From Planctomycetota bacterium (GTDB lineage Bacteria > Planctomycetota > Planctomycetia > Gemmatales > Gemmataceae), in contig JAIOPV010000272.1 of NCBI GenBank assembly GCA_021413735.1, positions 1 to 64,000 of the forward strand: a stretch of DNA of 64,000 nt. The letters are read 5' to 3'. The notes beneath the pieces are model-generated. The model had not been told where the DNA came from and made no database searches. It saw only the letters and a program-made list of their open reading frames with translations. Of this stretch, positions 18,113-52,262 are shown one piece after another (position 1 is the stretch's first letter; the number at the start of each line of letters is the position of its first letter). The translations under genes were made by a program, and so were the position numbers.

Positions 18113-18158
18113 GGGCGTCTCCGGATGAACATTCAAGGTGTCGAAATCGAGAATGAGG

Positions 18159-22373: not shown

Positions 22374-22418
22374 GCAAAATTTGTAATGGCGAACCCAAGG
22401 GGCCATCACAAATTTGCC
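22374..22418 (+). promoter_or_regulatory. Leader hairpin just upstream of the C-A-T-TE NRPS gene
   Basis: Two 17-bp arms (22374-22390 and 22402-22418) pair at 14 positions around GAACCCAAGGG and end 19 bp before the NRPS start codon. The arms are AT-rich (CAAAATTTGT / ACAAATTTG), unlike the GC palindromes elsewhere. It could be an operator for a dimeric regulator or an RNA leader structure that affects translation. No T run follows, so a simple terminator is unlikely. Confidence 0.4.
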
Positions 22419-22437
22419 TTGTCGCCGAGATAGACTT

Positions 22438-25400
22438 ATGACCGTTCGCCCTCCAGGTGCTGCGGATGCGAAGGTCCGAATCGCCTGGAGCAATCAGCCT
22501 GCGATTCCTCTTGACGGGTCACGGGATCATCTCCCCACAACCGCAGGCCAGCGTCGCCTTTGGTTGCTCGACCAAATTATTTCCAACCCCGAAGTCTATA
22601 ACGTCTACTTTTTGCTCCGCCTTCGAGGCAGGGTCAATGCCCTCGCCCTGCAGCGGAGTCTTGCGACTGTGGTCGCTCGCCACGCAGCACTGCGCACTCG
22701 ACTCGTCAATGTCGAGGGAATCCTTTCCCAACTGGTAGAGCCTCCGAGTTCGGTGGAGTCGCCAGTCATTGACCTTCGAGCGCACCCCGCAAGTGAACGG
22801 TTTGAGGACGTACGAGAAAGGGTTCACACTGACTCGAAACGACGGTTCGATCTGGCCTCCGGCAACCTCTGGACTGTTCAACTCTACTTACTGGAGGAAG
22901 AAGAGTCCCTGCTTTGGGTGAACTTCCACCATTCGATTATGGATGGTTGGGCCGTGAGCATCTTTTTTCGCGAACTGAGCCAGTGCTACGAGGCATTCTG
23001 CGTTGGGCGTGAGCCATCGTTGTCGATATTGCCGATCCAGTTTGGAGACTTTGCCGCGTGGCAACGTGAATACGCGAAGACTCCTGAATTTCAGCATCAA
23101 TTAGAGGGATGGAAGACTCGGCTGAACCTCCCGCTACCGCCCCTGGATCTCCCAGTTAGCAAAACACGCCCGACCTCGCAAACCTTTCTCGGTGCCACCC
23201 ACAAGTTCGCATTCCCGTCAGAGTTGGTGGTGGCGATTGATGAACTCGCGAGGCGAGAATTGGCGAGCCGATTTCTGGTTGGGTTGGCAGCATTTCAGTC
23301 GATCATGCACCGTTATACAAGGCAGGAGGATCTGCTCATTGGCGTCCCGGTCGCCAACCGTCAGCGACCCGAGACCCGCGAAATCATTGGGTTTTTTACC
23401 AACACATTGGTGTTCCGCACGAATCTCGGAGGCAATCCGACATTTCGCAATCTCCTTGCACGAACACGTCGGACCCGCGACGAAGCATTCACAGGCTCCG
23501 ACATCGACCTGGAATCACTTGTCGAGGCAATTCAACCAGCCCACGACCCCTCACGCCAACCATTCTTCCAGGTCGTGTTTCAGTATCAGAACATCGCGAT
23601 AACCCCCGATCGAATTGGTTCCCACACCGCTGAGGTCGTGCCCGTTCACAATGGCACCGCGATGTTCGATCTGCGGATGGTGCTTGAGGATTCCTCGGAC
23701 GGGGGCCTCTGGGGATGGATCGAATTTAACACTGCTCTCTTCGATAGCCCCGTCATTGAACGGCTCGCGAACCACTACCTGACATTCCTCCAGGCAGCTT
23801 GCACAGAACCGGACAAGACAATCGGTGAGCTGCCGCTGTTGACACTCAGCGAGCGGGAACAACTCGTAATTGGGTGGAATAACACACTGGGTCAATACCC
23901 GATGGATCTCTGCATCCATCAACTCTTCGAGGAGCAAGTTCGTCGTCAGCCCGATGCTGTGGCGGTGATCGCGAATGGTCGCAAGTGGACCTTTCGCCAA
24001 CTGAACGAGAAAGCCAATCAACTCGCTCGGCATCTCCAGTCTCAAGGGGTCGGGCCAGGCACCTTTGTTGGAGTTTGTCTCAAACGATCCCCGGAAATGA
24101 TGACGGCGATCTTGGCTGTACTCAAGGGGGGCAGTGCGTATGTGCCCCTCGACTCAGTGTACCCGCGTGACCGGCTGGCGTTCATGCTGGGAGACACGAA
24201 AGCCGCAGTCGTGTTGACGGAGCAGTCTTTAATCGAACGCCTACCCGAAGGGGCGGCACAATACCTGTGCCTGGATCTGATTGGAACCGAGTTGGATCGG
24301 CTCGATACCGAGAACCTCGGTCCCGTGAGCACGCCCGATGACCGTTGTTATGTGATCTACACTTCAGGCTCGACTGGCAGACCAAAGGGGGTTGTCCTGC
24401 GACACCGAGCTGTGGTGAATACCCTTGACTGGGTCAACACAACGTTTGGAGTTGGCCCATCCGATCGTGTGCTATTCGTGACTTCGTTGAGCTTCGACCT
24501 CTCCGTCTATGACATTTTTGGTGTGCTCGGCGCCGGTGGCTCTGTTCGCGTTGCCGACGAGGAAGAACTTCGCGATCCCGTTGAACTCATGCGAATCCTG
24601 CGGACCGAGCCAATCACAATTTGGGACTCGGCCCCTGCTGCCTTGCAACAGTTGGCTCCGTTTTTCGCACAGGATCGGGGCGGTCAACTCAGGCTGGTGA
24701 TGCTCTCAGGCGACTGGATTCCGGTATCGCTACCGAATCTTGTGCGCGCTGCATTTCCGCAGTCCAAGGTGATGAGTTTGGGAGGTGCGACCGAGGCCGC
24801 AATCTGGTCGAACTGGTACCCGATCGGTCATGTCGATCCATCATGGCCGAGCATCCCTTACGGCAAGCCTATTCGCAATGCCCGCTACCACATCTTGGAT
24901 GATCGACTCCAACCCGTTCCAGTGGGTGTCCCCGGAGAGCTACACATTGGCGGTTTGGTGCTGGCCGATGGGTACTTGAACCGCCCGGAACTGACGGCCG
25001 AACGGTTCATCCCCGACCACCTCACTCCGACTTCGCCTCCTGAACTTGGCCTCCCAAATGCGCCCAGGCTCTACAAGACTGGCGATCTGGCACGTTACTT
25101 TCCAGATGGGAACATCGAGTTCTTGGGTCGAATCGATCAGCAAGTGAAAGTCCGCGGCTACCGGGTTGAACTTGGCGAGATCGAGACTGTGCTCGCTCAA
25201 CACCCCGCGGTACGAGAGGTTGTCGTCAAGAATCACCGGGATGACGCGGGGCATGTGTACCTGGTGGCGTACCTCGTGTTGCGACCGTCGCTCGCGCTGA
25301 ACTCGGCCGAACTCGCGAAATATCTCAAGGCCAAACTGCCTGAGTACATGGTTCCGTCGCAGTTCATGGTCCTTGAGTCCTTGCCGTTGACTCCCAATGG

Positions 25401-26520
25401 CAAACTGGACCGTGCTGCGCTCACGCCACCCGAACTCGTAGTCACCAAGTCAGAGACAGAATTTAAACTACCGACAAATGACGCCGAGAGAGCATTGCAA
25501 GCGATCTGGGAAGAAGTTCTCAAGGTCCGACCCATCAGTGTGACTGATAGCTTCTACGACCTCGGTGGTCACTCGCTGATGGCCGCTGTCCTGATGGCTC
25601 GTGTTGAATCTCAGCTCGGGCACCGACTGCCGCTTGAGTTGTTGTTTTCCACCCCCACAGTGCGCGGGCTTGCAACGCTGATCCAACGCAAACTGGAACT
25701 GGGCCGTGGCTGCCTGGTCCCTCTTCAAACCGAGGGGATAAAGCCGGCGCTGTTCCTCATCGCGGGGGCAGGGGGGCACGTGTTCGCGTTCCATCAATTT
25801 GCGAGGTTACTCGGCTCCGACCAACCAACTTACGGTTTGAAAGCTGTCGGGGTGGATGGGTCGGAGCACCCGCTGGAGAGCATGAAGGAGATTGCATCTC
25901 GGTATCTGAAAGAGATCCTCCACAGCCGTCCGAATGGCCCGTTCATCATTGGAGGCTATTCGATCGGAGCGATCATCGCCTTTGAACTGGCTTTGCAGTT
26001 GCGGGCGGCTGGTATGGAAGTGCCTCGCGTAATCGTGTTCGACATGTTGGCACCGGGCTATCCGCGAAAGCCCGCGTTACCGCGACGCACCTGGTCTCAC
26101 TTGGTCCGTTTCGTGATGTCGCGAGGCAAGATTGCCTATCTCAAGGATCGGTATCGCCGGCTACGGGGGCGGGTGCTTGGGTTGTTGAACCTGCATCGAC
26201 TCGATGCCCCCGGCGTGCCTGGCATGGACGTGGTCCCTCAAGAGAATCTCAAGCGAGTTTGGGGCGCTCTCACAAAAGCCCACGAACATTACTGGCCGTC
26301 GGGCATGTACGATGGCCGCGTGGTTCTCTTCGCCTCCAACACTCCCGAGGACTGGCCCGGTTGTGTCTTCGACGACGACGCCAAGGGATGGAGTCGCTGG
26401 ACAACCGGAGGCGTCGAGATTCACACGGTGCACGCCGGGCACCTCGAAATGTTCCACGAGAGCAATCAGCGTGTCATTGCGGCGCTGTTGCGCGAAGCGA
26501 TCGCGAAGATCGGCAAGTAA
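22438..26520 (+). CDS. Single-module NRPS, C-A-T-TE, cysteine-like A-domain pocket
   Basis: 1360 residues from ATG 22438. Order: condensation domain ~30-460 with canonical HHSIMDG at 164-170; adenylation domain ~480-1000 with YTSGSTGRPKG from 641, YKTGDLARY and NGKLDR; carrier domain with GGHS (Ser1046 is the phosphopantetheine site); thioesterase with GGYSIG (Ser1175) and the catalytic-type His in HAGHLEMFH near 1335. Aligned by eye to GrsA, the ten specificity positions read D-L-Y-D-M-S-L-I-W-K, close to the cysteine code D-L-Y-N-L-S-L-I-W-K; LSGDWIP and LGGATEAAIWS are also typical of Cys-activating domains. The C domain is not the heterocyclising DxxxxD type. A GH-like lipoprotein gene follows after 17 bp. 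Confidence 0.95.
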   Translation: MTVRPPGAADAKVRIAWSNQPAIPLDGSRDHLPTTAGQRRLWLLDQIISNPEVYNVYFLLRLRGRVNALALQRSLATVVARHAALRTRLVNVEGILSQLVEPPSSVESPVIDLRAHPASERFEDVRERVHTDSKRRFDLASGNLWTVQLYLLEEEESLLWVNFHHSIMDGWAVSIFFRELSQCYEAFCVGREPSLSILPIQFGDFAAWQREYAKTPEFQHQLEGWKTRLNLPLPPLDLPVSKTRPTSQTFLGATHKFAFPSELVVAIDELARRELASRFLVGLAAFQSIMHRYTRQEDLLIGVPVANRQRPETREIIGFFTNTLVFRTNLGGNPTFRNLLARTRRTRDEAFTGSDIDLESLVEAIQPAHDPSRQPFFQVVFQYQNIAITPDRIGSHTAEVVPVHNGTAMFDLRMVLEDSSDGGLWGWIEFNTALFDSPVIERLANHYLTFLQAACTEPDKTIGELPLLTLSEREQLVIGWNNTLGQYPMDLCIHQLFEEQVRRQPDAVAVIANGRKWTFRQLNEKANQLARHLQSQGVGPGTFVGVCLKRSPEMMTAILAVLKGGSAYVPLDSVYPRDRLAFMLGDTKAAVVLTEQSLIERLPEGAAQYLCLDLIGTELDRLDTENLGPVSTPDDRCYVIYTSGSTGRPKGVVLRHRAVVNTLDWVNTTFGVGPSDRVLFVTSLSFDLSVYDIFGVLGAGGSVRVADEEELRDPVELMRILRTEPITIWDSAPAALQQLAPFFAQDRGGQLRLVMLSGDWIPVSLPNLVRAAFPQSKVMSLGGATEAAIWSNWYPIGHVDPSWPSIPYGKPIRNARYHILDDRLQPVPVGVPGELHIGGLVLADGYLNRPELTAERFIPDHLTPTSPPELGLPNAPRLYKTGDLARYFPDGNIEFLGRIDQQVKVRGYRVELGEIETVLAQHPAVREVVVKNHRDDAGHVYLVAYLVLRPSLALNSAELAKYLKAKLPEYMVPSQFMVLESLPLTPNGKLDRAALTPPELVVTKSETEFKLPTNDAERALQAIWEEVLKVRPISVTDSFYDLGGHSLMAAVLMARVESQLGHRLPLELLFSTPTVRGLATLIQRKLELGRGCLVPLQTEGIKPALFLIAGAGGHVFAFHQFARLLGSDQPTYGLKAVGVDGSEHPLESMKEIASRYLKEILHSRPNGPFIIGGYSIGAIIAFELALQLRAAGMEVPRVIVFDMLAPGYPRKPALPRRTWSHLVRFVMSRGKIAYLKDRYRRLRGRVLGLLNLHRLDAPGVPGMDVVPQENLKRVWGALTKAHEHYWPSGMYDGRVVLFASNTPEDWPGCVFDDDAKGWSRWTTGGVEIHTVHAGHLEMFHESNQRVIAALLREAIAKIGK

Positions 26521-26537: not shown

Positions 26538-28097
26538 ATGCGAGCAACACCGACCTCCAACGGCAGCCTGAGTAGTATCCTCGCAGTGTGCCTATTCGGT
26601 GGCATTGTGGGGTGTTCTCCCGCCCCCTCCGCGAACTCCACTGAGGGCGCCATCGACGCACCTCCAAGGCATTCCGTCTCGCATGGTTTGGGTCTCCACC
26701 TGGCTGCGGTTCAGGATTGGTCTCGGGAATGGGCGTTCGTGGACGCCTTCAAAGGGGCTCGCGAATGGACCCCCGTCGGTGGGGACGGGAAGCTAGCGTT
26801 CGACAAGAATGGCAACCCTCTGCTGGGTTCCGGACAAACTGCGTGGACTCTTCTCCTCCGCGAACTTGGTGGCCACTATCCGGCCGGCAAATACACCGTG
26901 ACCTGGAAAGGGACTGGTGAGTTGGAGGCTCGGCGTTGGGATGTCACTCGTGTGATCGCGACCGCGAAGGGTCGTGCTGAGATCGACGTCCGCCCGGATG
27001 ATGGAGGCATCCAGATTGATCTTAAATCGACTGACCCCAAGGATCCGATCCGGGAAATCCAGGCGTGGATGCCGGGGTTCGAGAACGCCAAATCGCCGTT
27101 TCATCCGCTGTTTGTCAAACGCCTCACACCGGCGAAGGTCGTCCGGTTCATGGACTGGCAACGGACCAACAACAGCACTCTCTCGAAGTGGGCCGACCGA
27201 CCCAAACCCACCGATCCCACGTATGCCACGGAACGCGGCGTCCCTGTCGAGATCATGGTTGCGCTGGCCAACTCAGCCAAGGTCGATCCATGGTTCTGCA
27301 TGCCCCACCTGGCTGACGACGACTACGTGAAGAACTTCGCTCGCATGGTCAAAACCGAACTCGACCCAAGCCGGACGGTGTATGTGGAGTTCAGTAATGA
27401 GGTCTGGAACTGGCAATTCAATCAAACATCCTGGGCTCGCGATCGAGGCAAAGAGCGCAAGCTTGGTCAGCCAGAACATGCGAGGTGCTACTCCGAGCGA
27501 GCCATTGAGGTCATGAAAATCTGGGAGCAGGAGTTTGGGCGAGATCGGCTCGTTCGCGTCCTCGGGTCACAGGCGGCGGTGCCATGGTTGACTGAGCAAA
27601 TCCTCACCTGGAAGGATGCCTATAAGCACGCCGATGCTCTCGCGATCGCTCCTTACTTTGGACACGAATACGGCGACCCGAAGAAAGTCGATGCCACAGT
27701 GAAAATGTCTCCGGCCCAATTGCTGGATGCGTTGGACAAGGAGATTGATGGGCCGAATCGGGACGTGATCAGGAAACAAGCAGAAGTCGCGAAGAAGTAC
27801 AAACTCGGTCTCATCGCCTATGAGGGCGGTCAACATCTCGTGGGGCACGGTGGCGCGGAGAATAACGCCGACCTCATGAACCTGTTCCATGCGGCGAACC
27901 GAGACCCACGCATGTATGACCTCTATGCCAAGCACCTCCGACACTGGGCTGATGCCGGAGGTGAACTGTATGTGCTCTTCAACTATGTCACGGCCCCTGG
28001 GAAGTGGGGCTCATGGGGGCTTTTGGAGTATCAGGATCAACCCATTACCGAGGCCCACAAATACCGGGCATTCGTGGACATCGGGAGCAAACGATAG
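26538..28097 (+). CDS. Lipoprotein with glycoside-hydrolase-like domain
   Basis: 519 residues from ATG 26538, with CAGGAGA upstream and only 17 bp after the NRPS stop, so it is almost certainly co-transcribed with it. A lipoprotein signal ends in IVGC (Cys26). Residues ~50-180 form a beta-rich domain with KYTVTWKGTGELE; residues ~195-500 look like a TIM barrel with RFMDWQRTNNST, VYVEFSNEVWNW (Glu288) and LIAYEGGQH (Glu429). Those two glutamates sit where GH-A-clan enzymes have the acid/base (strand 4) and nucleophile (strand 7); that assignment is my inference. The same domain occurs in the convergent 1396-residue neighbour. The substrate could be the locus's own polysaccharide. Confidence 0.8.
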   Translation: MRATPTSNGSLSSILAVCLFGGIVGCSPAPSANSTEGAIDAPPRHSVSHGLGLHLAAVQDWSREWAFVDAFKGAREWTPVGGDGKLAFDKNGNPLLGSGQTAWTLLLRELGGHYPAGKYTVTWKGTGELEARRWDVTRVIATAKGRAEIDVRPDDGGIQIDLKSTDPKDPIREIQAWMPGFENAKSPFHPLFVKRLTPAKVVRFMDWQRTNNSTLSKWADRPKPTDPTYATERGVPVEIMVALANSAKVDPWFCMPHLADDDYVKNFARMVKTELDPSRTVYVEFSNEVWNWQFNQTSWARDRGKERKLGQPEHARCYSERAIEVMKIWEQEFGRDRLVRVLGSQAAVPWLTEQILTWKDAYKHADALAIAPYFGHEYGDPKKVDATVKMSPAQLLDALDKEIDGPNRDVIRKQAEVAKKYKLGLIAYEGGQHLVGHGGAENNADLMNLFHAANRDPRMYDLYAKHLRHWADAGGELYVLFNYVTAPGKWGSWGLLEYQDQPITEAHKYRAFVDIGSKR

Positions 28098-28106
28098 TCT
28101 CAGGTC

Positions 28107-31100
28107 TTACCGTGGGGTGTAGGTCCAACTCAGGATGTCGAGATTTCCGGCCGTTGACCCTGTGCCCCCAGTGAACCCAGCGTAGGCGGTTGGTCCAGCC
28201 ACCGCTGCGATGTTGACCTTGGTGTTAAAGGTCACGGACTTGGCAAGTGTCACATCCGTCAGCGTCACTTTGAGAGTCGTTCCGTCGTAGCTCATCTGCG
28301 ATCGGAAGATGTGCCCACTGCGAAGATTCAACCCGGTGCCTGCCAAACTCAGTTGGTTGACGATCTGGCCCTCCGAGTCCACAGCGATTCGTCCGTTCAC
28401 GACATCGAACCGAACCGCCACGCCGGGCCGAATGTTCGTGAAGCCGTGTCCTTCGTTCCAGTTGCCGAGAGCGGTCGTCCCCTGGCTTTGCAAGGCGAAG
28501 GTGAAGCCGTTGCCGATGTTCGCCGAGTTTCCACCAATCGCACCAAGCCGGAACCGGAACGAGTTATTGAACTTGGTTACCCCAACCTTTGTCTGCGTGA
28601 AGGCGCTCCCGGCCTGATACTGACCGTTGACCAACCGCAGCGAAGTTCCCGCCATCGTTGCGGCCCCGTTGCGAGTCAGGCTCGTCAAGGATGTTCCCAC
28701 TGGCAGCGCGATGGTGATTGCGGACGTTGCTGTCTTGCCCGCAGCGGCGGCGGTCACGCTGGCAGTCCCGGCGGTCGCTGGAGCCGTGTACACACCAGCC
28801 GCCGAGATAGTCCCCGCACCCACCTCGGACCACGTGACACCACTTGGGGTCATGGCATTGCCGAACTGATCGGTTCCACTGGCCACGAACGCCTGGGTGG
28901 CATTCGCTGTCAGTGAAGTGGTCCCTGGAGTGACCACCAGACTCGTGAGCGTCTGGGCGACAGTGACAGGAACTTCGCTGTTTGCCGTGAGGCCGCTCGC
29001 ATCGGTTGCCTTCACATGGAGAACGTAGTTGCCGGCCTGGCTGAAGGTGGCAGTCGTTGCTTTGCCCGCGTTCGAGCCCGAGTAGGTGAAACTCACAGCA
29101 CCAGGCCCGGAGGCCATCCACCAGGTGTAGGTCAAAGTGCTCTCGCCGCTGTCATCCGTGCCTACCGCCGTGATGTTCACGGTCTTGCCGGTAATCGGTG
29201 AAATTGGCGCGGTGATTGCAACTGTAGGAGCCTGATTCGGCAGCGGCGAAACCGAAAGCGGAGGCGACACAGGTGGGGGTGACACAGGTGGCGAAACTGG
29301 CGGCGAAACCGGCGGCGAAACCGGCGGGGAGACTGGCGGTGAAACCGCGCCGCCATTCGGAGCATCAAACTTCAGCGAGTAGAGCGTGTAGCCCGCGTTC
29401 ACGATCCGAACACGGACAACGTTCAACCCTTCCTGGAGTTTCACAGACAGAGGCACCGAGTCCGCGAAGTCGTTCGGCGACCACTGGCTATCGTAATTTG
29501 GACCCGTCACAGGTAGCGTGAGTGTGCCCGCGTCCTGACCGTTCACCAGAATCTGAATCTGACCGCCCGCATCCACAGCCGCATACCGGACGCTCAGTGA
29601 GTAAGTCCCAGACTGCGGTGCTCGCACCATGTAATCGCGGGTGTCGTCGTTCTTCAGATAGCGTGGATAGGGGTCTGTGGTTGTGGCAGCGCCGACCGAG
29701 TTCGTTGCCAGCACTTCGCCGCTGATCGCGGTTCCAATCGTCGGAGCGACCACTGGAGCCTGCTGCACTTGCTGAATCCCCAGAATCTTCGGAGCGCTCA
29801 GGTTGTTGATGTCGTTGGTCATGCCCCAGGTGCCATACTGCGTGTCGTAGTTCGTCGGACCGGCCATGAACCAGTTGAACAGGCCACCACCACGAGCGTA
29901 CCAGTCGTTCATGTACTTCACGGTCAGGTCTTTGATCCGCGGATCAAGCGATGCGGCCTTCTTCGCCGCGATGTTGTTCGGGCCGAATGTATCCGGGCCA
30001 CCCTCGTAAGCCAGATTCGCCAGACCATAGTAGGTCGAGATCGCGGCTGTCTGGTCGAGGACCGGATCGTTTGCGTCGATCGCTTTTGAGAGGTCCGCGA
30101 GAATCTGATCGACGGACAGGTTGGTCTGCTGGTCGTCGTCGCCAATCGCGAAGTAGGGTGCGCCCGCTGTGCCATAGAGGAACTGCTTCGGATCGCCGTA
30201 GGTCTTCTGGATGAAGTCCAGTTGCGTCTGGAGGATGTACGGCACTGCCACCTGCGTGGCGAGAACTGGCCGAACCTGATTACCAATCGCGTCCTGGCCC
30301 CAGACCGTTGCGAACGTCTTGCTGATCTCCGTGATGCGGCGAGCAGTGCGGCGGAAGGCCCAATCCCACTGGTTCGCAGCAGCAGTCTCGCCGGGGTACG
30401 CCAGGTTCGACCCGCCGGCCTGCACTTCCGCGAGGGCAGCCTGCATGTTCACGTTGCTCTGCGAGAAGCCACCGTTCCACACCTCGTTCGAGTACTCCAG
30501 ATACACAGCACGGTCTGGGTTCAGCGACGACTTCAGCAAGTTCGCGAGCTGCGTGACGTAGGCGTCGTTCGCCCCAACTGGAATGTTGATCCACAGATCC
30601 TTGCCGGTGAGGTTGGCGAGTTGGATTGCGTATTCCCAGGCCGCACCCTTATCGGTCGATTGAATGGCGTCGGTCACCTTGGCGCGAGCGCCCCAGTTCA
30701 CCACAGCGTTGTTGTTCGTCTGGACGAAGTCCATGAACCGCAGCGTCGTGTAGGGCTGAATCGTTTTCAGGAAGTCGTTCGTAAATACCTGCGTGGTGTC
30801 CGCGGCGTAGCCTGGGCGAATGAGCTTGATGTCTTTCACTCCGGTGCCGACGTTCTTGAAGTTGAGCCCCAAGTACCAGCCGCCGTCCGAGTCGCTCGCG
30901 TTCAAGGTCACGTCAGCGGTCGTCTGGTTGGTGGCTGCGTTGTACACGACGTTGGAGACTCCACCCTGGCCCGCCCACATGGAGAGGTCCGCCTTGCCGG
31001 TGAACGACAGCTTGTAGACGCCGTTGTAGATGTGAGCGGTGTTCAAGAAACCCGACTGGAGGATGGTGTAGAAGTCCTGGGTTGGCCAGCCGTTTGCATC

Positions 31101-32297
31101 AGTCATTGCCGGTTGCCCGGTGCTGATGCTGGTGAACTCGCGAGCCTGCTTAATCATGTCCACAAAGACATTCTGCAACGACCAGTCTTTGATGCCGTCG
31201 ATGTTCGCACCGACCGGCACGGTCGAGGCAGCCGTGACGCTGCTGTACTTCCCGATCGCAAGTCCAGAAGTCGAACCGGTCACGAGTCCGCCGTGAGCAT
31301 CGCGGTTCATCGTCGGACTCGCCGTGCCAACCAGCTTCCAGGTTCCATCGGCCCCGGTATCGGAGACGTAGCCCGAGATCAGTGTGCCGTTGCGAATCAG
31401 CTTGACCCAGGGTTGCGCACCCACCGCGACGGCGGCGCTCTGAGTGACCCCCACTCCCGACCCTTCGCGAGCTAAGAACACGGCCTGCCCTGCTGTCACG
31501 GTGACGGACGCGAAGGCATCGCTGGCTCCCGTTCCCGCCCGGAACATCACGCCGCCTTGTGCGCCGGTGCCGGAAAGAGAATCGACTCGGGCGATTACGT
31601 TGGCATCGCCCATGATGGTCTGATAGGCAAAGTGAGATAAATCAGCGGCGCCGGCGAGCGAACCGGCACCGCTGACGGTATAGACGCCGGTCGTGGCAGT
31701 CAGAGACCCGGCAGCCGTGGGGCTGCCAATGTCTTGATCTAGCCAACCGTTATCGGCGTATACCTGACTTGTGGGGATCACAGCATTCGGCGTCGAAGCG
31801 CTGGACCACGCCAGCTTGATGTTCGACGCGCCCGTGCGATCCACGTATTCGAGTTTCAGATCGTAGACTTCGCCAGCCGTGAGGCTGATCGTTCCTGTCC
31901 AGGTGTTCGCGGTGGTGGCGGAAGCCGAGTCGATCAACTTCTGGCCGTTCACCCACAACCGCACCCCTTCATCCGCCGTCACCGAGAATGTGTAAGCCTC
32001 GGTGTACTGAGCCTGCACCTGCCCGGTCCAACGCACCGAGTACCCGTCGGCCGGCAGAGCCGCGACCGGAGCTGCAGTGCCCCAGTTGAAGTTGACGCTG
32101 GCATCGGTGCGAGTCGCGGCGAGTGTGGAGAAGTTTGAATCGCTGTAGTAGTTCGCAACGAGACCGGTTCCGATTCCCAAAGCTGCGGGGACTTCTCGGC
32201 ACTCGAGTTGCTCAACTGAAAGTAAGCGAGGGTTGGTACGAATTGGCTGAGTCGTTTGGAAGAGGCTGGCCACCCAACGGGACAGAAAACGACGCAT
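28107..32297 (-). CDS. Large surface protein: PA14, GH-like, lectin domains
   Basis: 1396 residues from ATG 32297 (CCGGAG upstream; 60 further upstream codons look untranslated). The N-terminus carries LLSVEQLECREVPA, a motif near the start of many planctomycete exported proteins. Then: PA14 (~50-190, GLVANYYSDSNFS, FSVTADEGVRLWVNGQ); a concanavalin-like DUF1349-type domain (~200-330); a GH-like barrel (~440-850) with RFMDFVQTNNN, EYSNEVWN (Glu605) and LAYEGG (Glu765); a CBM6/35-like domain (~880-1000); a SPPV-repeat linker; PKD- and Big-like domains; and a C-terminal legume-lectin-like domain (GNGFTFALQSQG, VAVRFDVVNGRIAVD). Three or four carbohydrate-binding modules make a surface role with polysaccharide likely. 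It ends 9 bp from its convergent paralogue. Confidence 0.85.
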   Translation of the reverse strand: MRRFLSRWVASLFQTTQPIRTNPRLLSVEQLECREVPAALGIGTGLVANYYSDSNFSTLAATRTDASVNFNWGTAAPVAALPADGYSVRWTGQVQAQYTEAYTFSVTADEGVRLWVNGQKLIDSASATTANTWTGTISLTAGEVYDLKLEYVDRTGASNIKLAWSSASTPNAVIPTSQVYADNGWLDQDIGSPTAAGSLTATTGVYTVSGAGSLAGAADLSHFAYQTIMGDANVIARVDSLSGTGAQGGVMFRAGTGASDAFASVTVTAGQAVFLAREGSGVGVTQSAAVAVGAQPWVKLIRNGTLISGYVSDTGADGTWKLVGTASPTMNRDAHGGLVTGSTSGLAIGKYSSVTAASTVPVGANIDGIKDWSLQNVFVDMIKQAREFTSISTGQPAMTDANGWPTQDFYTILQSGFLNTAHIYNGVYKLSFTGKADLSMWAGQGGVSNVVYNAATNQTTADVTLNASDSDGGWYLGLNFKNVGTGVKDIKLIRPGYAADTTQVFTNDFLKTIQPYTTLRFMDFVQTNNNAVVNWGARAKVTDAIQSTDKGAAWEYAIQLANLTGKDLWINIPVGANDAYVTQLANLLKSSLNPDRAVYLEYSNEVWNGGFSQSNVNMQAALAEVQAGGSNLAYPGETAAANQWDWAFRRTARRITEISKTFATVWGQDAIGNQVRPVLATQVAVPYILQTQLDFIQKTYGDPKQFLYGTAGAPYFAIGDDDQQTNLSVDQILADLSKAIDANDPVLDQTAAISTYYGLANLAYEGGPDTFGPNNIAAKKAASLDPRIKDLTVKYMNDWYARGGGLFNWFMAGPTNYDTQYGTWGMTNDINNLSAPKILGIQQVQQAPVVAPTIGTAISGEVLATNSVGAATTTDPYPRYLKNDDTRDYMVRAPQSGTYSLSVRYAAVDAGGQIQILVNGQDAGTLTLPVTGPNYDSQWSPNDFADSVPLSVKLQEGLNVVRVRIVNAGYTLYSLKFDAPNGGAVSPPVSPPVSPPVSPPVSPPVSPPPVSPPLSVSPLPNQAPTVAITAPISPITGKTVNITAVGTDDSGESTLTYTWWMASGPGAVSFTYSGSNAGKATTATFSQAGNYVLHVKATDASGLTANSEVPVTVAQTLTSLVVTPGTTSLTANATQAFVASGTDQFGNAMTPSGVTWSEVGAGTISAAGVYTAPATAGTASVTAAAAGKTATSAITIALPVGTSLTSLTRNGAATMAGTSLRLVNGQYQAGSAFTQTKVGVTKFNNSFRFRLGAIGGNSANIGNGFTFALQSQGTTALGNWNEGHGFTNIRPGVAVRFDVVNGRIAVDSEGQIVNQLSLAGTGLNLRSGHIFRSQMSYDGTTLKVTLTDVTLAKSVTFNTKVNIAAVAGPTAYAGFTGGTGSTAGNLDILSWTYTPR
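29260..29345 (-). repeat. 12-bp tandem repeat encoding the SPPV linker
   Basis: About seven imperfect copies of GGCGGCGAAACC (plus-strand reading) lie inside the large surface protein gene; one copy carries three extra bases. On the coding strand they give repeated Ser-Pro-Pro-Val, a stiff extended linker between the carbohydrate-binding domain and the PKD/Big domains. The near-identical units make length variation by slippage likely. Confidence 0.85.
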
Positions 32298-33038: not shown

Positions 33039-35855
33039 TTAAACGCGATCCCATTTCTGCGACTTGTCGGCTCGTTCAATCGAAGCAACCACCTGCCGAG
33101 CCAGCGACTCGATGTTGCTTTCGTGAAAAATTTCCAGATGGCCGAGCGGAACGGTGTGAACCTCGACCAAGCGGTTGGTGTACTGCTCCCAACCAAGATC
33201 CGCGTCAACGTGAACGACACTTTCCCACACGTCTATCGGCAACTCAGAACGAAACAGTGTGACGCTTCCGTTGAGCCGTCCTTGTGGGTGATATCGTCGC
33301 GTCGCTCGTTGCATTGCCAACCAGACGGCGCGGATTGATTCTTGAGGCAGCGAGTCGAGCCCTGGGTGATAGGGGAAGAGAACTCGTTCGAGCCCAAGGA
33401 GCCGCAGAACACGGTTGCCGATGTTGCGGAACCGTTGGGCCGCATATCGGAAACCACCCTGTCGGCCAAATAGATTGCGAAGGTGAAGCCGAAGTCGTCG
33501 CAAGGTTGACAGCCGAGTCTGATAGCCCGGCGCCGGCATATCAAAAACAATTACAAGCGGCACCGTGTGGCCAAGAGCCTCAAGTTGGAACGCAACCTCC
33601 AAGGCAACATGGGCTCCGACCGAGTAGCCAGACACGACGTATGGCCCCTGTGGGCGAGCAGCGGTGATCTCGCGAACGTACTCCGCCGCTATCTCCTCGA
33701 AGGACTCCAGCGGTGGGCGGTTCCCATCGACTCCGATCGCTTTGAGTCCATACACCGGATAGTCCGCGCCGAGAAGTTTGGCGAACTTCTGGAATGTAAA
33801 CACATGACCACCAACGCCAGCGATCATGAATAGAGGCGGTTGAGTGCCCTCGGTGTGAAGTGGTACGAGCGAGTGCTCGGAACCAGCCTCCAACCCGTGC
33901 TGAATGAGGGTCGCCAACTTCTCGACCGTGTTCGCCTCGGACATTGCTCCAAGCGGGATCGTAAACCCCAATTGCTGACGGATGCGAGACACAATCTCGG
34001 CTGCTTGGAGCGACGATCCGCCAAGTTCAAAGAAGTTGTCCGTGACACCAAACCCGAGGCGACCAAGAACCTCCGTCCAGATACTCAGCACATCTTTCTC
34101 GGCATCGGTTCGGGGCTGAACACTTTCCTGATCGGAAGTGAAGAGAGCAGGCTCAGGAAGATTTCGGCGATCGACCTTGCCATTGGAGGTCAGTGGAAGG
34201 GCATCCAGAAATGTGATCGACGCTGGAGTCATGTACGCGGGCAGATGCTTGCGCAGGTGTTGACGGAGTGTCTCAGGGTTCTGCTGTTCCCCCGCTCTGA
34301 GCACAACATATGCAGCCAACTGTGGGGGCTGGCCCCAAACCTTCACGGCCGCGGCAGCGATAGCGGGATGGGAAGCGAGCGCCGATTCCACCTCCCCGAG
34401 TTCGATCCGGAAGCCACGAATTTTTACCTGATCGTCACGCCGACCCAGATATTCAAGCACGCCATCCGCGCGCCAACGCGTCAAATCGCCAGTCTTGTAC
34501 ATTCGCGCGACGTGAGACACGAAGGGATCGGGAACAAACCGTTCTTCGGTCAACTCGGGACGATCAAGGTAACCAAGAGTCACTCCGTCGCCACCAATGT
34601 ACAACTCGCCGACTTCCCCTGGTGGGACAAGTTGCATTGCGTCATTCAGGACATAGAGCCTGGTGTTCGCGATAGGTTTGCCAATCGGAACGTCGCCAGT
34701 TTCGGGATCGTTCGAGCCGTAGTCGTGGACACAGCAACCCACGACGGTTTCGGTCGGTCCATACTCGTTGACCACGCGAGTCTGTGGAGCGTGTCGTCGC
34801 CACCATGCAGCCGCAGCGGCTGGCAGAGCCTCACCGCCAACAACGAGAACCCTGGCCAAACCTGCCGCTTGACGTGGATCAAGGGTTCGACTCAGAATCG
34901 AGAGGTGAGCAGGTGTGAGCTTCAACAGTGTGAGATCGCGATGGCGGGTCAATGCGTCCAGCAGGGCATCGACCCCCGCATCATCCGGCAGAAGGTGGAC
35001 CGGCTTACCGACGATCAAGGGGACGAGCAGACTGGTCACAGTGAGATCGAAACTGAGAGGCGAGTGAACCAAAGAGCCAGTTCCTTCGTCGGCGTTGTAG
35101 GCTCGCGCTGCCCATGTGAGATAGTTGACCAGACCCCGGTGATGGACCATCACGCCTTTCGGGCGGCCCGTCGATCCGGAGGTATGGAGGACATAGGCCA
35201 AGTGATCTGGGCCGCAGCTCACGTCGGGAGGTGTTGACGGCAGCCTGTTCAGAGAGGCAGTTGAGGAGTCGAGATTGAGAACCGGAACACCTTTGGGTGG
35301 AACAACGATCCCACTCGCAGACTCCACCCCCAACACGGCACGAACATTCGCATCCGCCACGACGAATGCCAGTCGCTCCGGTGGATGGGAGAGATCCAGA
35401 GGGACATAAGCAGCTCCAGCCTTGAGCACCCCCATTAACCCGGCGACGAGGTCTGGGGACCGTCCAAGTGCGAGCGCAACACGATCATTGGCTCCGACTC
35501 CGAGGTTACGGATCGCATGAGCAATGCGATTCGCTCGCGCGTCCAGTTCGGTGAATGTTTGGGATGAATTGCCGGCAGTCACAGCAACGTCATTCGGAGT
35601 TCGCGTGACCTGTGCTGCGAAGAGATCGTGAGTACAGAGATTTCTGGGATAGTCCGCTGCGGTCGCATTCCAGTCTTCAAGAAGCCTCTGTCGGTCGGCC
35701 GGCCTCACAAGGTCAAACGGGTCAGCGGCAGCCTCCAAGGGGGCTGTAGGATTGGTGAACAGGCCTGCGGTGGCAACGACTCCAAGGCCAGTATGACCGG
35801 ATAAGTCGTTCGCCGCCGCGCCGTGAAGAGTGTCGTTGTGATTTGGAGTTCGCAT
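33039..35855 (-). CDS. NRPS-like A-T-TE protein, asparagine-like A-domain pocket
   Basis: 938 residues with no condensation domain. Adenylation domain ~55-560 (LHTSGSTGRPKG, NEYGPTETVVG, YKTGDLTRW, NGKVDR), carrier domain with LGGSSL (Ser615), thioesterase ~650-930 with GYSVG (Ser745) and the His region in HTVPLGHLEIFH. By eye the specificity positions read D-L-T-K-V-G-E-V-G-K; the usual asparagine code is D-L-T-K-L-G-E-V-G-K and the aspartate one D-L-T-K-V-G-H-I-G-K, so Asn is the better fit. Without a C domain it could load one amino acid and let the TE hydrolyse it or transfer it to a sugar or amine. It is the last gene of the polysaccharide run, 136 bp after glmS. The start at 35855 lacks a clear Shine-Dalgarno site. 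Confidence 0.93.
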   Translation of the reverse strand: MRTPNHNDTLHGAAANDLSGHTGLGVVATAGLFTNPTAPLEAAADPFDLVRPADRQRLLEDWNATAADYPRNLCTHDLFAAQVTRTPNDVAVTAGNSSQTFTELDARANRIAHAIRNLGVGANDRVALALGRSPDLVAGLMGVLKAGAAYVPLDLSHPPERLAFVVADANVRAVLGVESASGIVVPPKGVPVLNLDSSTASLNRLPSTPPDVSCGPDHLAYVLHTSGSTGRPKGVMVHHRGLVNYLTWAARAYNADEGTGSLVHSPLSFDLTVTSLLVPLIVGKPVHLLPDDAGVDALLDALTRHRDLTLLKLTPAHLSILSRTLDPRQAAGLARVLVVGGEALPAAAAAWWRRHAPQTRVVNEYGPTETVVGCCVHDYGSNDPETGDVPIGKPIANTRLYVLNDAMQLVPPGEVGELYIGGDGVTLGYLDRPELTEERFVPDPFVSHVARMYKTGDLTRWRADGVLEYLGRRDDQVKIRGFRIELGEVESALASHPAIAAAAVKVWGQPPQLAAYVVLRAGEQQNPETLRQHLRKHLPAYMTPASITFLDALPLTSNGKVDRRNLPEPALFTSDQESVQPRTDAEKDVLSIWTEVLGRLGFGVTDNFFELGGSSLQAAEIVSRIRQQLGFTIPLGAMSEANTVEKLATLIQHGLEAGSEHSLVPLHTEGTQPPLFMIAGVGGHVFTFQKFAKLLGADYPVYGLKAIGVDGNRPPLESFEEIAAEYVREITAARPQGPYVVSGYSVGAHVALEVAFQLEALGHTVPLVIVFDMPAPGYQTRLSTLRRLRLHLRNLFGRQGGFRYAAQRFRNIGNRVLRLLGLERVLFPYHPGLDSLPQESIRAVWLAMQRATRRYHPQGRLNGSVTLFRSELPIDVWESVVHVDADLGWEQYTNRLVEVHTVPLGHLEIFHESNIESLARQVVASIERADKSQKWDRV

Positions 35856-38382: not shown

Positions 38383-39579
38383 TCATTTGCAACTTGGTTC
38401 GCGCTGGGTCCGAACCCAATCCGTCTGGGGCTTCGCAAAAAAACCGAGATAGAGCGGGATCTTCCTCACGACATAGAGAGGAGTTCTGAGCAGAGTTCCC
38501 AGTGGAAGTGTTGCGCGACCAAATCGCATCCAGGCTGAGGTCAACCCCATGACTGCGAAGGCGATCATAGTGGCAAGTACGACTGCGGGGACCGGCGATC
38601 CCCAGAGGAGACCCCAGGCAATGAGCACAGCGAGACTCACTCCGGACACCATCAGCAATGCTGACAGCGGGGGCACGCCGAGTTCCAATGCCAGCGCCAA
38701 CGGTGCCAATCGACCTCGGATCGCTGCCCGAAGTAATCGCGGAACTCCAGCAAGAATCACCTGTAAATGTCCATGTTCCCAGCGCCGTCGCTGAGTCCCT
38801 GCCGCCTGATCCGCGAGCGGGAACTCGGCGTCCACCTCGACATCAGGGGCGAACATGGGTGAGTGTCCCGCAATCACGAGATCGACCGCGAGTTGCATAT
38901 CCTCGACGATGTGACCATGACCGAGTTTCGCCTTTGCGATGATTTCCCAGGGAAACGCCATACCCGTTCCGGTGAGCAAACACGGCAGTCCAAGTCGGTG
39001 GAGGCCCAGGGGGCGGACGACATTCTTGATGAGGAAAGCGAACGCCGCTATGCGACGTTCTGCTCCCGCTCCCGACGGCGGGTTCATGCGATACGCGGCT
39101 TGAATCGGTCGCTGGTGGGTAAGTGCTCGCTCGACGAGCCGAGCCAATCCACCCGGAGCGAGCACACAATCTGCATCGAGAATCACCACCACGGCGGGTG
39201 GATTTGAGCGGAGCGAGTCGATGCCGAACGCGAGAGCGTATCCCTTCCCACGACGAGATGCATCGAACCGTTCGACAACATCAACTCCATGAGCGAGGAC
39301 AATATCGCGAGTGCGATCAGTGCAGTTATCCGCAACGACTAACACCCGGTCTTCTGGTCCAAGGTTCATTGCGACGGCGTTAAGAGTGCGAGCCAGCCCC
39401 AACTCTTCGTTGTGTGCGGGGATCAAGACCACGCACCTCGCGCGCGTGGTCGTTTGCCGCTTTGGGGTGCGGATACGCCTGCAGCTCGCGACAAAGCACT
39501 CGATTGCGAGGATGCCGAGAGGGACCGAGCAGACGACGGCGAGGGTCCACGCGACCGGTTCGAGCAAGTCCCAGTTCAT
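38383..39579 (-). CDS. Membrane GT2 glycosyltransferase (processive type)
   Basis: 398 residues. An N-terminal helix (VAWTLAVVCSVPLGILAIEC) anchors a GT-A domain: VVLIPAHNEELGLARTL, DNCTDRTRD, VVVILDADCVLAPGG (DxD type), VEDMQLAVDL (ED) and QRRRWEHGH (Q/RxxRW). C-terminal helices follow (LSALLMVSGVSLAVLIAWGLLW, VVLATMIAFAVMGLTSAW). This set is typical of cellulose-synthase/hyaluronan-synthase-like GT2 enzymes, so it may add repeated sugars, not just one. Its ATG overlaps the stop of the GT4 gene (ATGA at 39576-39579), and AAGGGTG precedes it. Confidence 0.93.
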   Translation of the reverse strand: MNWDLLEPVAWTLAVVCSVPLGILAIECFVASCRRIRTPKRQTTTRARCVVLIPAHNEELGLARTLNAVAMNLGPEDRVLVVADNCTDRTRDIVLAHGVDVVERFDASRRGKGYALAFGIDSLRSNPPAVVVILDADCVLAPGGLARLVERALTHQRPIQAAYRMNPPSGAGAERRIAAFAFLIKNVVRPLGLHRLGLPCLLTGTGMAFPWEIIAKAKLGHGHIVEDMQLAVDLVIAGHSPMFAPDVEVDAEFPLADQAAGTQRRRWEHGHLQVILAGVPRLLRAAIRGRLAPLALALELGVPPLSALLMVSGVSLAVLIAWGLLWGSPVPAVVLATMIAFAVMGLTSAWMRFGRATLPLGTLLRTPLYVVRKIPLYLGFFAKPQTDWVRTQREPSCK

Positions 39580-40838: not shown

Positions 40839-40864
40839 GTTGTGTTGGGTGAAATAGAGCGGGG

Positions 40865-43986: not shown

Positions 43987-44106
43987 TTTTGGGCTCCGGT
44001 TCAAGGCACGAGCACGACGGAATGACTTGCGTGCAAAACCGATGCCCACACAAGCAGATTCACTTTGCGACAGCGATTTTGTCCCGGCTTGCGAACTCAA
44101 CAGACT

Positions 44107-47153: not shown

Positions 47154-48223
47154 CGAATTACCTCTGGTGAGAGTGCAGAGTGACGCGTCAGAAAGTTGTA
47201 GCGCACGAAATCTCTCAGCAAGTATGGAGGGTCCTGCTCGGGTTTCCCCTGGAGTCGTCGCCGCAGCAACCACGTCGCACGAGCGAGAGTCCATCCCAGC
47301 GAGGCCAACCAGGTTCGCCCCCATCCGAGATGCTTGAGGAAGTACCGTCTCCTCGCCGCGAGCCAGTACGTTGGTATTTGCCGTTGTTGCTGTTTCGAAT
47401 TATTCATGCCTGTCGCCTGGCCCACGAGATGAACGACTCGGCTTTCTGGGACATACCAGCATTCCCACCCAGCCGTGCTGGCCCGTCGGCAGAAATCAAC
47501 CTCCTCGAAATACAGGAAGTACCCCTCATCCAGAAACCCAATTTGCTCGAACACGGCCCGACGTACCAACATGCTCGCCCCTGAGACCCAGGCCGCGGAG
47601 TGTTCTTCTTCCCGAACGGCTGGAGCCACAACAAAGCGGGCCAGCAGACGACTCACGAGGCCGAGGCGCAACCCGTTCTCAAACTCCGCAGCCATCCCCG
47701 GAAAGCGAAACGCAGAGCGTTGTGGAGTCCCATCTGGGTTCTCAAGACGGCTCCCAGCGATGCCTGCGCGCGGATGGGCTTCGAGGAACGCTACCAGCGA
47801 GCGAATCGCCCCAGGCCGAACAACGGTGTCCGGGTTCAACAGCAGGACATACTCCGACATGGCTTCCGATGCGAACACATGGCGGAGAGCAACGTTGTTC
47901 CCAGCAGCGAATCCCCCATTGCGCGACGCGACAAGCAGCTCGACCCAATCACCCCAGCCGTTCTCCTGCACCGCCACACGGAGGCGATCCGCCGAGCCGT
48001 CGGGCGAAGCGTTGTCCACCAACATCACCTTGACGCCTCCCTCTTGAACAACGGACCGGAGACAGTCAATCACGAGATCGGCTGTGTTGTAGTTGACGAT
48101 CACCACCGTCACACGAGGTGAGCACTTCTCGCTTGTTTCCTGGGTAGCAGTGGCCCGCGATGTGCATGCTCGCGAGCCGTTGTCGGTTTCATTCTCACGC
48201 TCACGTTGGAGATCGCCGGTCAT
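47150..48223 (-). CDS. GT2 glycosyltransferase, rhamnosyltransferase-like
   Basis: 357 residues, the first gene of the minus-strand polysaccharide run. After a poorly conserved 35-residue head comes a GT-A domain: VTVVIVNYNTADLVIDCL, MLVDNASPDGSADRL, ASRNGGFAAGNNVALRH, LLLNPDTVVRPGA, WVSGASMLVRRAVFEQIGFLDEGYFLYFEEVDFCRRA and the closing VVHLVGQATG. This is the WbbL/rhamnosyltransferase-type pattern, though the sugar is not proved by it. The start ATG (48221-48223) overlaps the divergent WecG-like start in a CATG tetramer; an internal start after the head would relieve that. Confidence 0.93.
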   Translation of the reverse strand: MTGDLQRERENETDNGSRACTSRATATQETSEKCSPRVTVVIVNYNTADLVIDCLRSVVQEGGVKVMLVDNASPDGSADRLRVAVQENGWGDWVELLVASRNGGFAAGNNVALRHVFASEAMSEYVLLLNPDTVVRPGAIRSLVAFLEAHPRAGIAGSRLENPDGTPQRSAFRFPGMAAEFENGLRLGLVSRLLARFVVAPAVREEEHSAAWVSGASMLVRRAVFEQIGFLDEGYFLYFEEVDFCRRASTAGWECWYVPESRVVHLVGQATGMNNSKQQQRQIPTYWLAARRRYFLKHLGWGRTWLASLGWTLARATWLLRRRLQGKPEQDPPYLLRDFVRYNFLTRHSALSPEVIR

Positions 48224-49010
48224 GTCTCTCTCGTCGAAAGTTGGACTACCCCCACCCGTCAAGATTTGGGGGCTGCCTCTCACTCCTCTAACCTTCAATC
48301 AGACTCTCGATGCCATCCAAGGGCTGATCGCTGTCAAGGAACCCGCCATCGTCATCACTGCCAATCTGCACTACGCCATGCTGTCGGCCCAGGAATCCGA
48401 CTTGCCCCAGATCAATCAGAATGCGGCGTTCATCGTCGCGGATGGAGCTCCACTTGTCTGGGCTTCCCGACGCTCTCGGACGCCGCTGCCCGAGCGAGTC
48501 GCAGGGTCCGATCTCGTCCCGGCCCTGTGTCGCCGCATCGCCCCCAACCATGGTCGCGTGTTTCTCCTCGGTGGTGCGCCCGGCGTGGCGGAAGCAGCCG
48601 GGAAGATTCTCATCGAGCGGTACGCTGGCTTGCAGGTTGTCGGAGCAGAGACGCCTCCGTTTCGGCCACTCTCGGAGGTCGAAACCGCCGACCTGCTCGT
48701 TCGCATCCGTCAAACCAAGCCGGATGTTCTGTTCGTTGCATTCGGACAGCCAAAGGGAGAGCGATGGCTGACCTCTCATCTCCATGAACTAGGAACGCCA
48801 GTATGCCTTCAGATCGGCGCTTCGTTTGACATGCTTGTCGGTCGGGTTCGGCGTGCCCCCAGGTGGGTTCAACGTCTGGGATTCGAGTGGGCCTGGCGCA
48901 TCGCCACGGAGCCGCGTCGTCTTGGTCCACGTTACGCTCAGGACGCCTGGTTCCTCATCCGGCAACTCTTCTTCCGTGCTCGTCGCAGTCGAACTGTTCG
49001 CGGGAACTAG
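48222..49010 (+). CDS. WecG/TagA/CpsF-family glycosyltransferase
   Basis: 262 residues from ATG 48222, with GGAG about 12 nt upstream. The GT26 family pattern is clear: VKIWGLPLTPLTFNQTLDAI at the start, ITANLHYAM, AAFIVADGAPLVWASR (DG block), RVFLLGGAPGVAEAAG, VLFVAFGQPKGERWL and the C-terminal GASFDMLVGRVRRAPRWVQRLGFEWAWRIATEPRRLGPRY. These enzymes add ManNAc(A) or a related sugar to a lipid-linked first residue. Residues 190-262, which include the conserved C-terminal block, lie antisense to the end of the Wzc-like gene. Confidence 0.95.
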   Translation: MSLSSKVGLPPPVKIWGLPLTPLTFNQTLDAIQGLIAVKEPAIVITANLHYAMLSAQESDLPQINQNAAFIVADGAPLVWASRRSRTPLPERVAGSDLVPALCRRIAPNHGRVFLLGGAPGVAEAAGKILIERYAGLQVVGAETPPFRPLSEVETADLLVRIRQTKPDVLFVAFGQPKGERWLTSHLHELGTPVCLQIGASFDMLVGRVRRAPRWVQRLGFEWAWRIATEPRRLGPRYAQDAWFLIRQLFFRARRSRTVRGN

Positions 49011-51479: not shown

Positions 51480-52262
51480 ATGCACACCAACCTCTGCTTG
51501 GCCACTTCTGACATCTCAGACTTCTCCCCCATGTCGAATCCTCCCAATGTCATTGATGGGTTGTCGATCCGTATCTCCGAGCACTCTTCCTCCATCCTCG
51601 CAGGTCTGGAACGGGCACGCATCTGGTACACCCGAGTGGTCTGCACGACACAACGTCACCTCTCCGCACGTCTGAAACGGGCCGGAGACTTCGTTGGAGC
51701 AGTCACATTGCTTCTGGTTCTCAGTCCGCTTTTGCTCGTGATCGCGGGACTCATCAAACTTACCGACGGTGGTTCTGTGCTGTTCTGGCAGACTCGCGTT
51801 GGTCGTTGGGGCCGCCCGTTCTGGTTCCCCAAATTCCGATCAATGGTTGCAAACGCCGAGCAACTCAAAGCCCGACTGCTGGCTTACAACGATCATGGCA
51901 ACAGCGTGACATTCAAGATGAAACGTGACCCGCGAGTGACCTGGATTGGGCGAATCATTCGCAAGGCGAGCATTGATGAGTTGCCCCAACTCTGGTGTGT
52001 GTTGAAAGGCGAGATGTCGCTGGTTGGTCCTCGACCCCCGGTGCCGCAGGAAGTGGCAAAGTACACCATGAAGCAACGCCGACGGCTGGAAGTGTCCCCA
52101 GGGCTCACCTGCCTTTGGCAGATCAGTGGACGTGGTGATTTGCCGTTTCCTCGGCAAGTTGAACTCGACATTGAGTACATCGAAACGCAATCACTTTGGA
52201 CTGACCTGCGGATTCTCGTGAAGACCATACCGGCCGTCGCCCTTGGCCGCGGTGCCTACTAA
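51480..52262 (+). CDS. Priming sugar phosphotransferase (polyprenyl-P, WcaJ/WbaP type)
   Basis: 260 residues from ATG 51480, with a possible alternative ATG at 51531; neither has a good binding site. It transfers a sugar-1-phosphate from a UDP-sugar to undecaprenyl phosphate, the first step of repeat-unit synthesis. Only the catalytic half of long WcaJ proteins is present: one re-entrant/transmembrane segment (LLLVLSPLLLVIAGLIKL), LFWQTRVGRWGRPFWFPKFRSM, DELPQLWCVLKGEMSLVGPRPP (the catalytic Asp-Glu pair) and SPGLTCLWQISGRGD. The 65-residue head has no membrane helices. Next gene starts 31 bp downstream on the same strand. Confidence 0.95.
   Translation: MHTNLCLATSDISDFSPMSNPPNVIDGLSIRISEHSSSILAGLERARIWYTRVVCTTQRHLSARLKRAGDFVGAVTLLLVLSPLLLVIAGLIKLTDGGSVLFWQTRVGRWGRPFWFPKFRSMVANAEQLKARLLAYNDHGNSVTFKMKRDPRVTWIGRIIRKASIDELPQLWCVLKGEMSLVGPRPPVPQEVAKYTMKQRRRLEVSPGLTCLWQISGRGDLPFPRQVELDIEYIETQSLWTDLRILVKTIPAVALGRGAY

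Follow-up and report, generated by a model that had tools for sequence, protein, structure and literature searches.

In glycoside hydrolases (GH) of clan GH-A, the acid/base Glu, which is preceded by an Asn, ends strand 4 of the catalytic barrel, and the nucleophile Glu ends strand 7. Operons for bacterial exopolysaccharides commonly encode a hydrolase or a lyase, for example PslG or PelA, and the literature on the latter two states that such enzymes set the length of the exopolysaccharide chain and its release (PMC9894940). Here we consider two neighboring genes, A and B, of a planctomycete of the Gemmataceae (assembly GCA_021413735.1, contig JAIOPV010000272.1, positions 1 to 64,000); this whole stretch of 64,000 nucleotides is called the window in the following. 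A and B seem to encode exported, most likely retaining, glycosidases of clan GH-A which trim or release the organism's own exopolysaccharide, a reading to which we assign a probability of about 0.62. The features of the pair on which this reading is based are as follows.

26538..28097, forward strand: gene A, a lipoprotein of 519 residues with a GH-A-type barrel (open reading frame, domain search, motif comparison)
26769..27068, forward strand: β-sandwich of A that separates strands 1 and 2 of the barrel, residues about 78-177, model residues 39-138 (strand order in the AlphaFold2 model)
27399..27401, forward strand: codon of Glu288, the predicted acid/base, three residues past strand 4 (motif and model; 110 of 110 rows)
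27822..27824, forward strand: codon of Glu429, the predicted nucleophile, two residues past strand 7 (motif and model; 110 of 110 rows)
28107..32297, reverse strand: gene B, a multidomain paralogue of 1396 residues whose predicted catalytic core is homologous to A (open reading frame, domain search)
29748..31214, reverse strand: predicted catalytic core of B, residues about 362-850 (homology to A)
30483-30485 and 30003-30005, reverse strand: codons of Glu605 and Glu765 of B (motif comparison)

The two genes are convergent, with their stop codons 9 nucleotides apart, and their products share 31% identity over 481 columns. The likeness is not due to chance, because the BLASTP E-value is 2e-53. 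Both proteins possess the motifs RFMD (from residue 203 in A and 520 in B), TNN (210 and 527), SNEVWN (286 and 603, placing the first Glu at 288 and 605), and AYEGG (427 and 763, placing the second Glu at 429 and 765), and the two Glu residues are 141 residues apart in A and 160 in B. An earlier note, made from the letters of the window, had proposed convergent paralogues with exactly these motifs, Glu positions, and spacings, and all of this is borne out. Gene A starts 17 nucleotides past the stop codon of a gene resembling nonribosomal peptide synthetases (NRPS) at 22414-26520, and AGGAG precedes its ATG. Because of this short gap and the AGGAG in front of its own start codon, A may be co-transcribed with the NRPS-like gene.

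Alignments of three sizes were employed, with 22 relatives (A1), 51 rows (A2), and 110 rows. The AlphaFold2 model of the core of A, obtained with A2 (pLDDT 93.5, pTM 0.93; model numbers are residue numbers of A minus 39), is a (β/α)8 barrel in which eight strands, i.e., 1 (11-15), 2 (162-164), 3 (211-216), 4 (242-246), 5 (299-304), 6 (328-331), 7 (385-388), and 8 (436-441), alternate with helices. Glu288 (model 249) follows strand 4 by three residues and is preceded by N287, and Glu429 (model 390) follows strand 7 by two, both as in clan GH-A and both in 110 of 110 rows, so that the model supports a clan GH-A layout for the core of A. The earlier note had placed the Glu pair at these positions and had called for structure prediction and fold comparison; the barrel is indeed obtained, and its best matches are enzymes of clan GH-A. 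In a VIA-align list of 50 rows these are GH51, GH79, GH5, and GH164 enzymes (Z 20.7-25.3, identity 8-12%), where Z differences below 1 count as ties and absence from the list does not exclude a family. The first row of a Foldseek search is a β-1,4-galactanase of family GH53 (E 1.1e-7), and predicted viral structures gave general barrel matches and nothing more specific.

The residues R203, E284, N287, E288, W290, N291, Y373, Y428, and E429 are identical in all 110 relatives. In A1 the first Glu is invariant in 22 of 22 sequences and the second in all rows that reach its column, and both columns are also invariant in the 51-row alignment. This invariance bears on the idea that A or B might be related to GH-A barrels and yet bind sugars without catalysis: no observation favors it directly, and both Glu and seven further motif residues have stayed unchanged in 110 of 110 rows although many relatives are merely 22-30% identical to A, which makes it very improbable. 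For catalytic barrels, the retaining mechanism predicted for A and B follows from what is known of clan GH-A. Glu429 of A and Glu765 of B would act as nucleophiles of a double displacement, with Glu288 and Glu605 as acid/base, and R203, N287, Y373, and Y428 would complete the active site.

The β-sandwich that interrupts the barrel of A was also folded alone (pLDDT 91.4). Its best fold match is a porphyran-binding carbohydrate-binding module (CBM) with a weak Z of 6.3, and there is no Foldseek match with an E-value below 0.001. As its CBM-like matches are this weak, no CBM family is claimed for it. A scaffoldin domain matched the sandwich at E 0.0025, a value that rose to 0.19 with the larger alignment, and was treated as chance.

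Neither the core of A nor that of B has a match in Pfam or NCBIfam, and A has no convincing match among PDB sequences. With the alignments of 22 and 51 relatives, the barrel likewise lacks a convincing match in Pfam or in PDB sequence profiles, and searches with relatives found none in NCBIfam or PHROGs. The GH5 model PF00150 and the GH39 model PF01229 were each found in 0 of 51 members (the former at E 0.01), and PF01229 has no match in genome G000 either. For GH51 and GH79, no Pfam model was found among the 22 and 51 members and no PDB sequence matched over the barrel, and nine GH5 proteins from related genomes were not matched in an hhalign comparison (probability 0.1%). Three further candidates were treated as chance: a GH1 model in one of 22 members (E 0.083, with three weaker matches), DUF6392 in one of 51 members (E 0.0005), and two TatD-type nucleases against A (E 1.4). 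Judged by its sequence, the barrel thus seems to belong to a GH-A family for which the Pfam, NCBIfam, PHROG, and PDB-sequence libraries contain no model; a numbered CAZy family with neither a PDB entry nor a Pfam or NCBIfam model could escape these searches. The earlier note had been unable to name a CAZy family, and the outcome is the same here. In open-access full texts no paper contains "SNEVWN", an absence that is weak evidence, and no paper in the open-access literature mentions the accessions or locus tags of plasmid homologs. Among open-access listings and abstracts on exopolysaccharide glycoside hydrolases of planctomycetes, new GH-A families, and depolymerases of planctomycete phages, none describes the A/B family.

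What connects the A/B family with exopolysaccharides is its genomic surroundings, which in the window consist of the following genes.

22414..26520, forward strand: NRPS-like gene with condensation, adenylation, thiolation, and thioesterase domains (C-A-T-TE), directly upstream of A (domain search)
33039..35855, reverse strand: NRPS-like gene with A-T-TE domains, upstream of B (domain search)
38383-39579, reverse strand: glycosyltransferase of family 2 (GT2; domain search)
39576-40940, reverse strand: glycosyltransferase of family 4 (GT4; domain search)
40865-43288, reverse strand: Gfo/Idh/MocA oxidoreductase fused to an NAD-epimerase (domain search)
42991-44100, reverse strand: GT2 (domain search)
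44107-45720, reverse strand: Wzy/O-antigen-ligase-like protein (no Pfam match, named by its look)
45663-47324, reverse strand: Wzx-type flippase (domain search)
47150-48298, reverse strand: GT2 (domain search)
48093..49010, forward strand: WecG/TagA/CpsF glycosyltransferase (PF03808, E 8e-58)
48789-51104, reverse strand: Wzz/Wzc-like protein (no Pfam match, named by its look)
51480..52262, forward strand: initiating sugar transferase (PF02397, E 4e-64)

The region of 36-55 kb, which also contains glmS, a gene for a hexapeptide protein, and two methyltransferase genes and codes for four GT-family proteins, is a Wzx/Wzy-type exopolysaccharide cluster. The A/B pair adjoins this cluster and is flanked by the two NRPS-like genes. 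Farther away, an open reading frame at 14936-18136 on the reverse strand has, by eye, the look of a CYP102-like, self-sufficient P450 with a fused reductase.

The family is encoded in 24 of 99 relatives and in 40 of 392 genomes sampled from the phylum, together 57 different genomes (genomes and loci carry our G and L numbers). Among regions of up to 20 kb around planctomycete family genes, 8 of 40 hold at least one of nine markers from the window, compared with 0 of 20 control regions. A gene for the initiating transferase PF02397 was located no more than 25 kb from a family gene in 7 of 46 genomes, where 1.6 were expected (simulated P 0.00085), and no more than 5 kb away in four, where 0.32 were expected (P 0.00033). 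This test covered 63 places in 46 of the 57 genomes, with short fragments and second copies set aside (G043, G074, G095, G206, G235, G236, G241, G318, G370, G437, and G469 are outside it), and G000 falls beyond the 25-kb limit by 137 bases. GT2a, one of the window's GT2 genes, is present (E at most 1e-30) in 14 of the 24 family-bearing genomes and in 21 of the 99 overall (P 2.6e-6); inside the window's own family of genomes the corresponding values are 8 of 10 and 14 of 61 (P 3.7e-5). In three relatives the family gene belongs to an exopolysaccharide operon or directly adjoins one, while the window pair is associated with its cluster by neighborhood only. At L192 of genome G027, genes for GT4, GT2a, the family protein, and a PF02397 transferase follow each other on one strand and the second and third overlap; at L158 of G467 the family gene comes after the transferase and before GT2b; and at L189 the order is GT2c, family gene, WecG, transferase.

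Plasmids carry the family as well, in 25 records; most of these are from Alphaproteobacteria, and the named ones include one cyanobacterium. Of the 25 regions, 14 were viewed by their annotation or, for four unannotated ones, by tblastn; the following counts are without control regions. Nine of the 14 (L132, L136, L138, L139, L200, L201, L203, L204, and L205) have at least two exopolysaccharide-type genes nearby, L133, L134, and L137 have one, and L135 and L202 have none or a GT25 alone. In the Shinella plasmids L138 and L200, GT2b (50-51% identity), GT2a (44%), and GT4 (39-40%) are shared with the window, and the Gfo/Idh-epimerase fusion, 35-36% identical over more than 740 residues, adjoins the same glycosyltransferases. 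The third of these rhizobial plasmid loci, Neorhizobium L205, has GT2a in common with the window at 50% identity. The L136 protein that contains the family domain bears the annotation of a family 16 glycosylhydrolase. The family member of a Paracoccus plasmid (L135, 12016-13683) is annotated as "ABC transporter substrate-binding protein," which is probably a misannotation. Taken together, the plasmid and planctomycete data strongly support a link of the A/B family to exopolysaccharide loci, which is partial in planctomycetes and tight where it holds.

Several observations weigh against an exopolysaccharide-related function. Most planctomycete copies (window markers in 8 of 40 regions) lie away from exopolysaccharide genes; the nearest relative, G013, has its family gene apart from its exopolysaccharide cluster; in the window an NRPS-like gene and glmS stand between the pair and the cluster; the Paracoccus copy is located among uxuA, the gene for L-idonate dehydrogenase (uronate catabolism), and transporter genes, and that of L202 among other metabolic genes; the association counts and P values ignore phylogeny and shared ancestry within groups; and the open-access literature yielded no reported activity for any enzyme of the family. 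In G013, GT2a (75% identity) is found on a different contig, where a flippase (PF13440) and a sugar transferase (PF02397) lie at most 10 kb from it, and therefore co-occurrence does not need adjacency. The position of most planctomycete copies and the surroundings of the Paracoccus copy, together with the PA14, PKD, and lectin-like modules of B, which are typical of secreted degraders, would suit catabolic enzymes that digest algal, plant, or bacterial polysaccharides as food, with an incidental link to exopolysaccharides. In contrast, family genes inside exopolysaccharide operons of several distant lineages, the enrichment of PF02397 nearby, and the co-occurrence with GT2a at the genome level argue for a function in exopolysaccharide metabolism, and domain searches of the window revealed no transporter or catabolic cluster beside the pair. 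On balance, a nutritional role seems unlikely, yet it is the strongest of the competitors considered for A and B.

The features that concern export and the modules of B are the following.

31797..32168, reverse strand: PA14 domain of B, residues 44-167 (PF07691, E 3.5e-27, above the Pfam cut-off)
28959..29237, reverse strand: PKD domain of B, residues about 1021-1113, after a Ser-Pro-Pro-Val linker (PF18911/PF22352, above the cut-off)
28152..28679, reverse strand: L-type-lectin-like C-terminal domain of B, residues 1207-1382 (PF18483, E 1e-6, below the curated cut-off)

Read by eye, A possesses the lipobox IVGC with Cys26, in agreement with its earlier description as a lipoprotein, and Shinella copies carry MDRRTFL-type leaders resembling those for twin-arginine translocation. 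Of the modules formerly proposed for B, PA14 is secure, whereas the CBM-like and lectin domains are likely and weaker, with matches below the cut-off (E 0.06 for a CBM35-like match). The N-terminal motif LLSVEQLECREVPA of B has a form common to its orthologue in G013. If A and B act on their own exopolysaccharide, A, anchored by its lipid at the membrane, might trim, proofread, or release the polymer of the neighboring Wzx/Wzy-type cluster, and B, by means of its PA14, PKD, and lectin-like modules, might attack that polymer or a related one at a greater distance, in the matrix or on the cell surface.

A tree was constructed from the 110 different sequences among 136 near-full domains, by a quick method with support values only from the Shimodaira-Hasegawa-like approximate likelihood ratio test (SH-aLRT), and seven of its long branches are unsure. 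A is placed with Gemmataceae copies, to which other copies from planctomycetes and Rhizobiaceae are joined in a group of 25 rows (SH-aLRT 99). B belongs to a group of 11 rows (SH-aLRT 98) that is made up of planctomycete proteins, many of which are long, and includes three rows from IMG/VR. A and B each cluster with their own G013 orthologue, at 74% identity, and these two are encoded at separate places in G013; it follows that the duplication dates far back and that the convergent gene order has not been preserved.

Neither of two queries recovered a family record from the INPHARED phages. In IMG/VR, 102 stretches were confirmed and 79 loci kept. Nineteen tree rows form one clade of uncultivated phages (SH-aLRT 100), whose records fall in L023-L053 and which is sister to the planctomycetes G259 and G402. 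The C-terminal half of a split phage PolA at L039, which has ThyX, an SbcD-like protein, and a uracil-DNA glycosylase (UDG)-exonuclease as neighbors, is closely matched at 14 of the 79 loci, and a terminase (PF03237) is encoded on 13 of 36 IMG/VR records tested, about 2-5 kb from the family gene in the few worked out. Because of these PolA-type matches and terminases, several of the contigs are real tailed-phage fragments; others, e.g., L051 beside a DUF1800 gene, may be bacterial. The tree alone would suggest planctomycetes as the hosts. One IMG/VR record of 284776 bases has the family domain in a protein of at least 1893 residues beside a tail-fibre-like protein (L080), and also carries a second family copy (L058) and a terminase.

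Retaining GH-A sites can transglycosylate, and the operon position is compatible with enzymes that do not hydrolyze exopolysaccharide chains but re-join them or attach them to, e.g., the cell surface. No feature of sequence or structure favors transfer over hydrolysis, however, and the phage-borne copies suit cleavage better, so that transglycosylases are rather improbable. For the trimming or releasing glycosidases that we prefer, a more far-reaching and tentative proposal, doubtful as a whole, can be formulated: the family might be a new GH-A family at the CAZy level dedicated to one exopolysaccharide, made with a conserved glycosyltransferase module shared horizontally between Planctomycetota and Alphaproteobacteria, decorated by NRPS products, and attacked by a phage depolymerase. 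In G402, too, NRPS matches accompany the family gene (L186), and the Parasedimentitalea plasmid L203 carries NRPS- and polyketide-synthase-type genes. The NRPS genes by the window pair and at these two loci suggest a peptide- or amino-acid-decorated polymer, as this proposal would require, and phages, probably of planctomycetes, and their hosts would then carry sister versions of one enzyme.

Beyond the earlier note, the present analysis adds the exopolysaccharide context, the β-sandwich after strand 1, the invariant R203, E284, N287, Y373, and Y428, and the spread to alphaproteobacterial plasmids, a cyanobacterium, and phages. If the preferred reading is right, a glycosidase family is gained whose predicted active site is clear, whose model is confident, and for which a substrate, the polymer of the neighboring cluster, can be put to the test. 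It would also provide an entry to planctomycete exopolysaccharides, which are scarcely covered in the literature found, and a tool for cutting them. With the phage copies one could examine whether infection by planctomycete phages requires cleavage of the polymer.

Compared with the GH39 enzyme PslG, with PelA, and with further hydrolases encoded in exopolysaccharide operons, the A/B family is without a match to PF01229 or another model, and the biosynthetic clusters differ. GH5_4 endoglucanases (6q1i; Z 22.2, rmsd 3.2 over 291 residues) and the GH164 β-mannosidase (6t6g; Z 21.3, rmsd 3.4 over 272 residues) have the same barrel as A, although identities are about 9-10% and PF00150 does not match. 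The barrel is also that of the GH79 β-glucuronidase/heparanase enzymes 5bwi (Z 24.6, rmsd 3.0 over 287 residues) and 7psh (Z 23.4), which differ from A in their domain arrangement and share 9-12% identity with it, with no sequence match; 5bwi ties in Z with the GH51 match. GH51 α-L-arabinofuranosidases (2y2w, 1pz2) are 10% identical to A, with no sequence match, and in A the sandwich follows strand 1 and the modelled core has no post-barrel domain, but they share the same barrel, and 2y2w is the top match listed, with a Z of 25.3 and an rmsd (root-mean-square deviation) of 3.1 over 301 residues.

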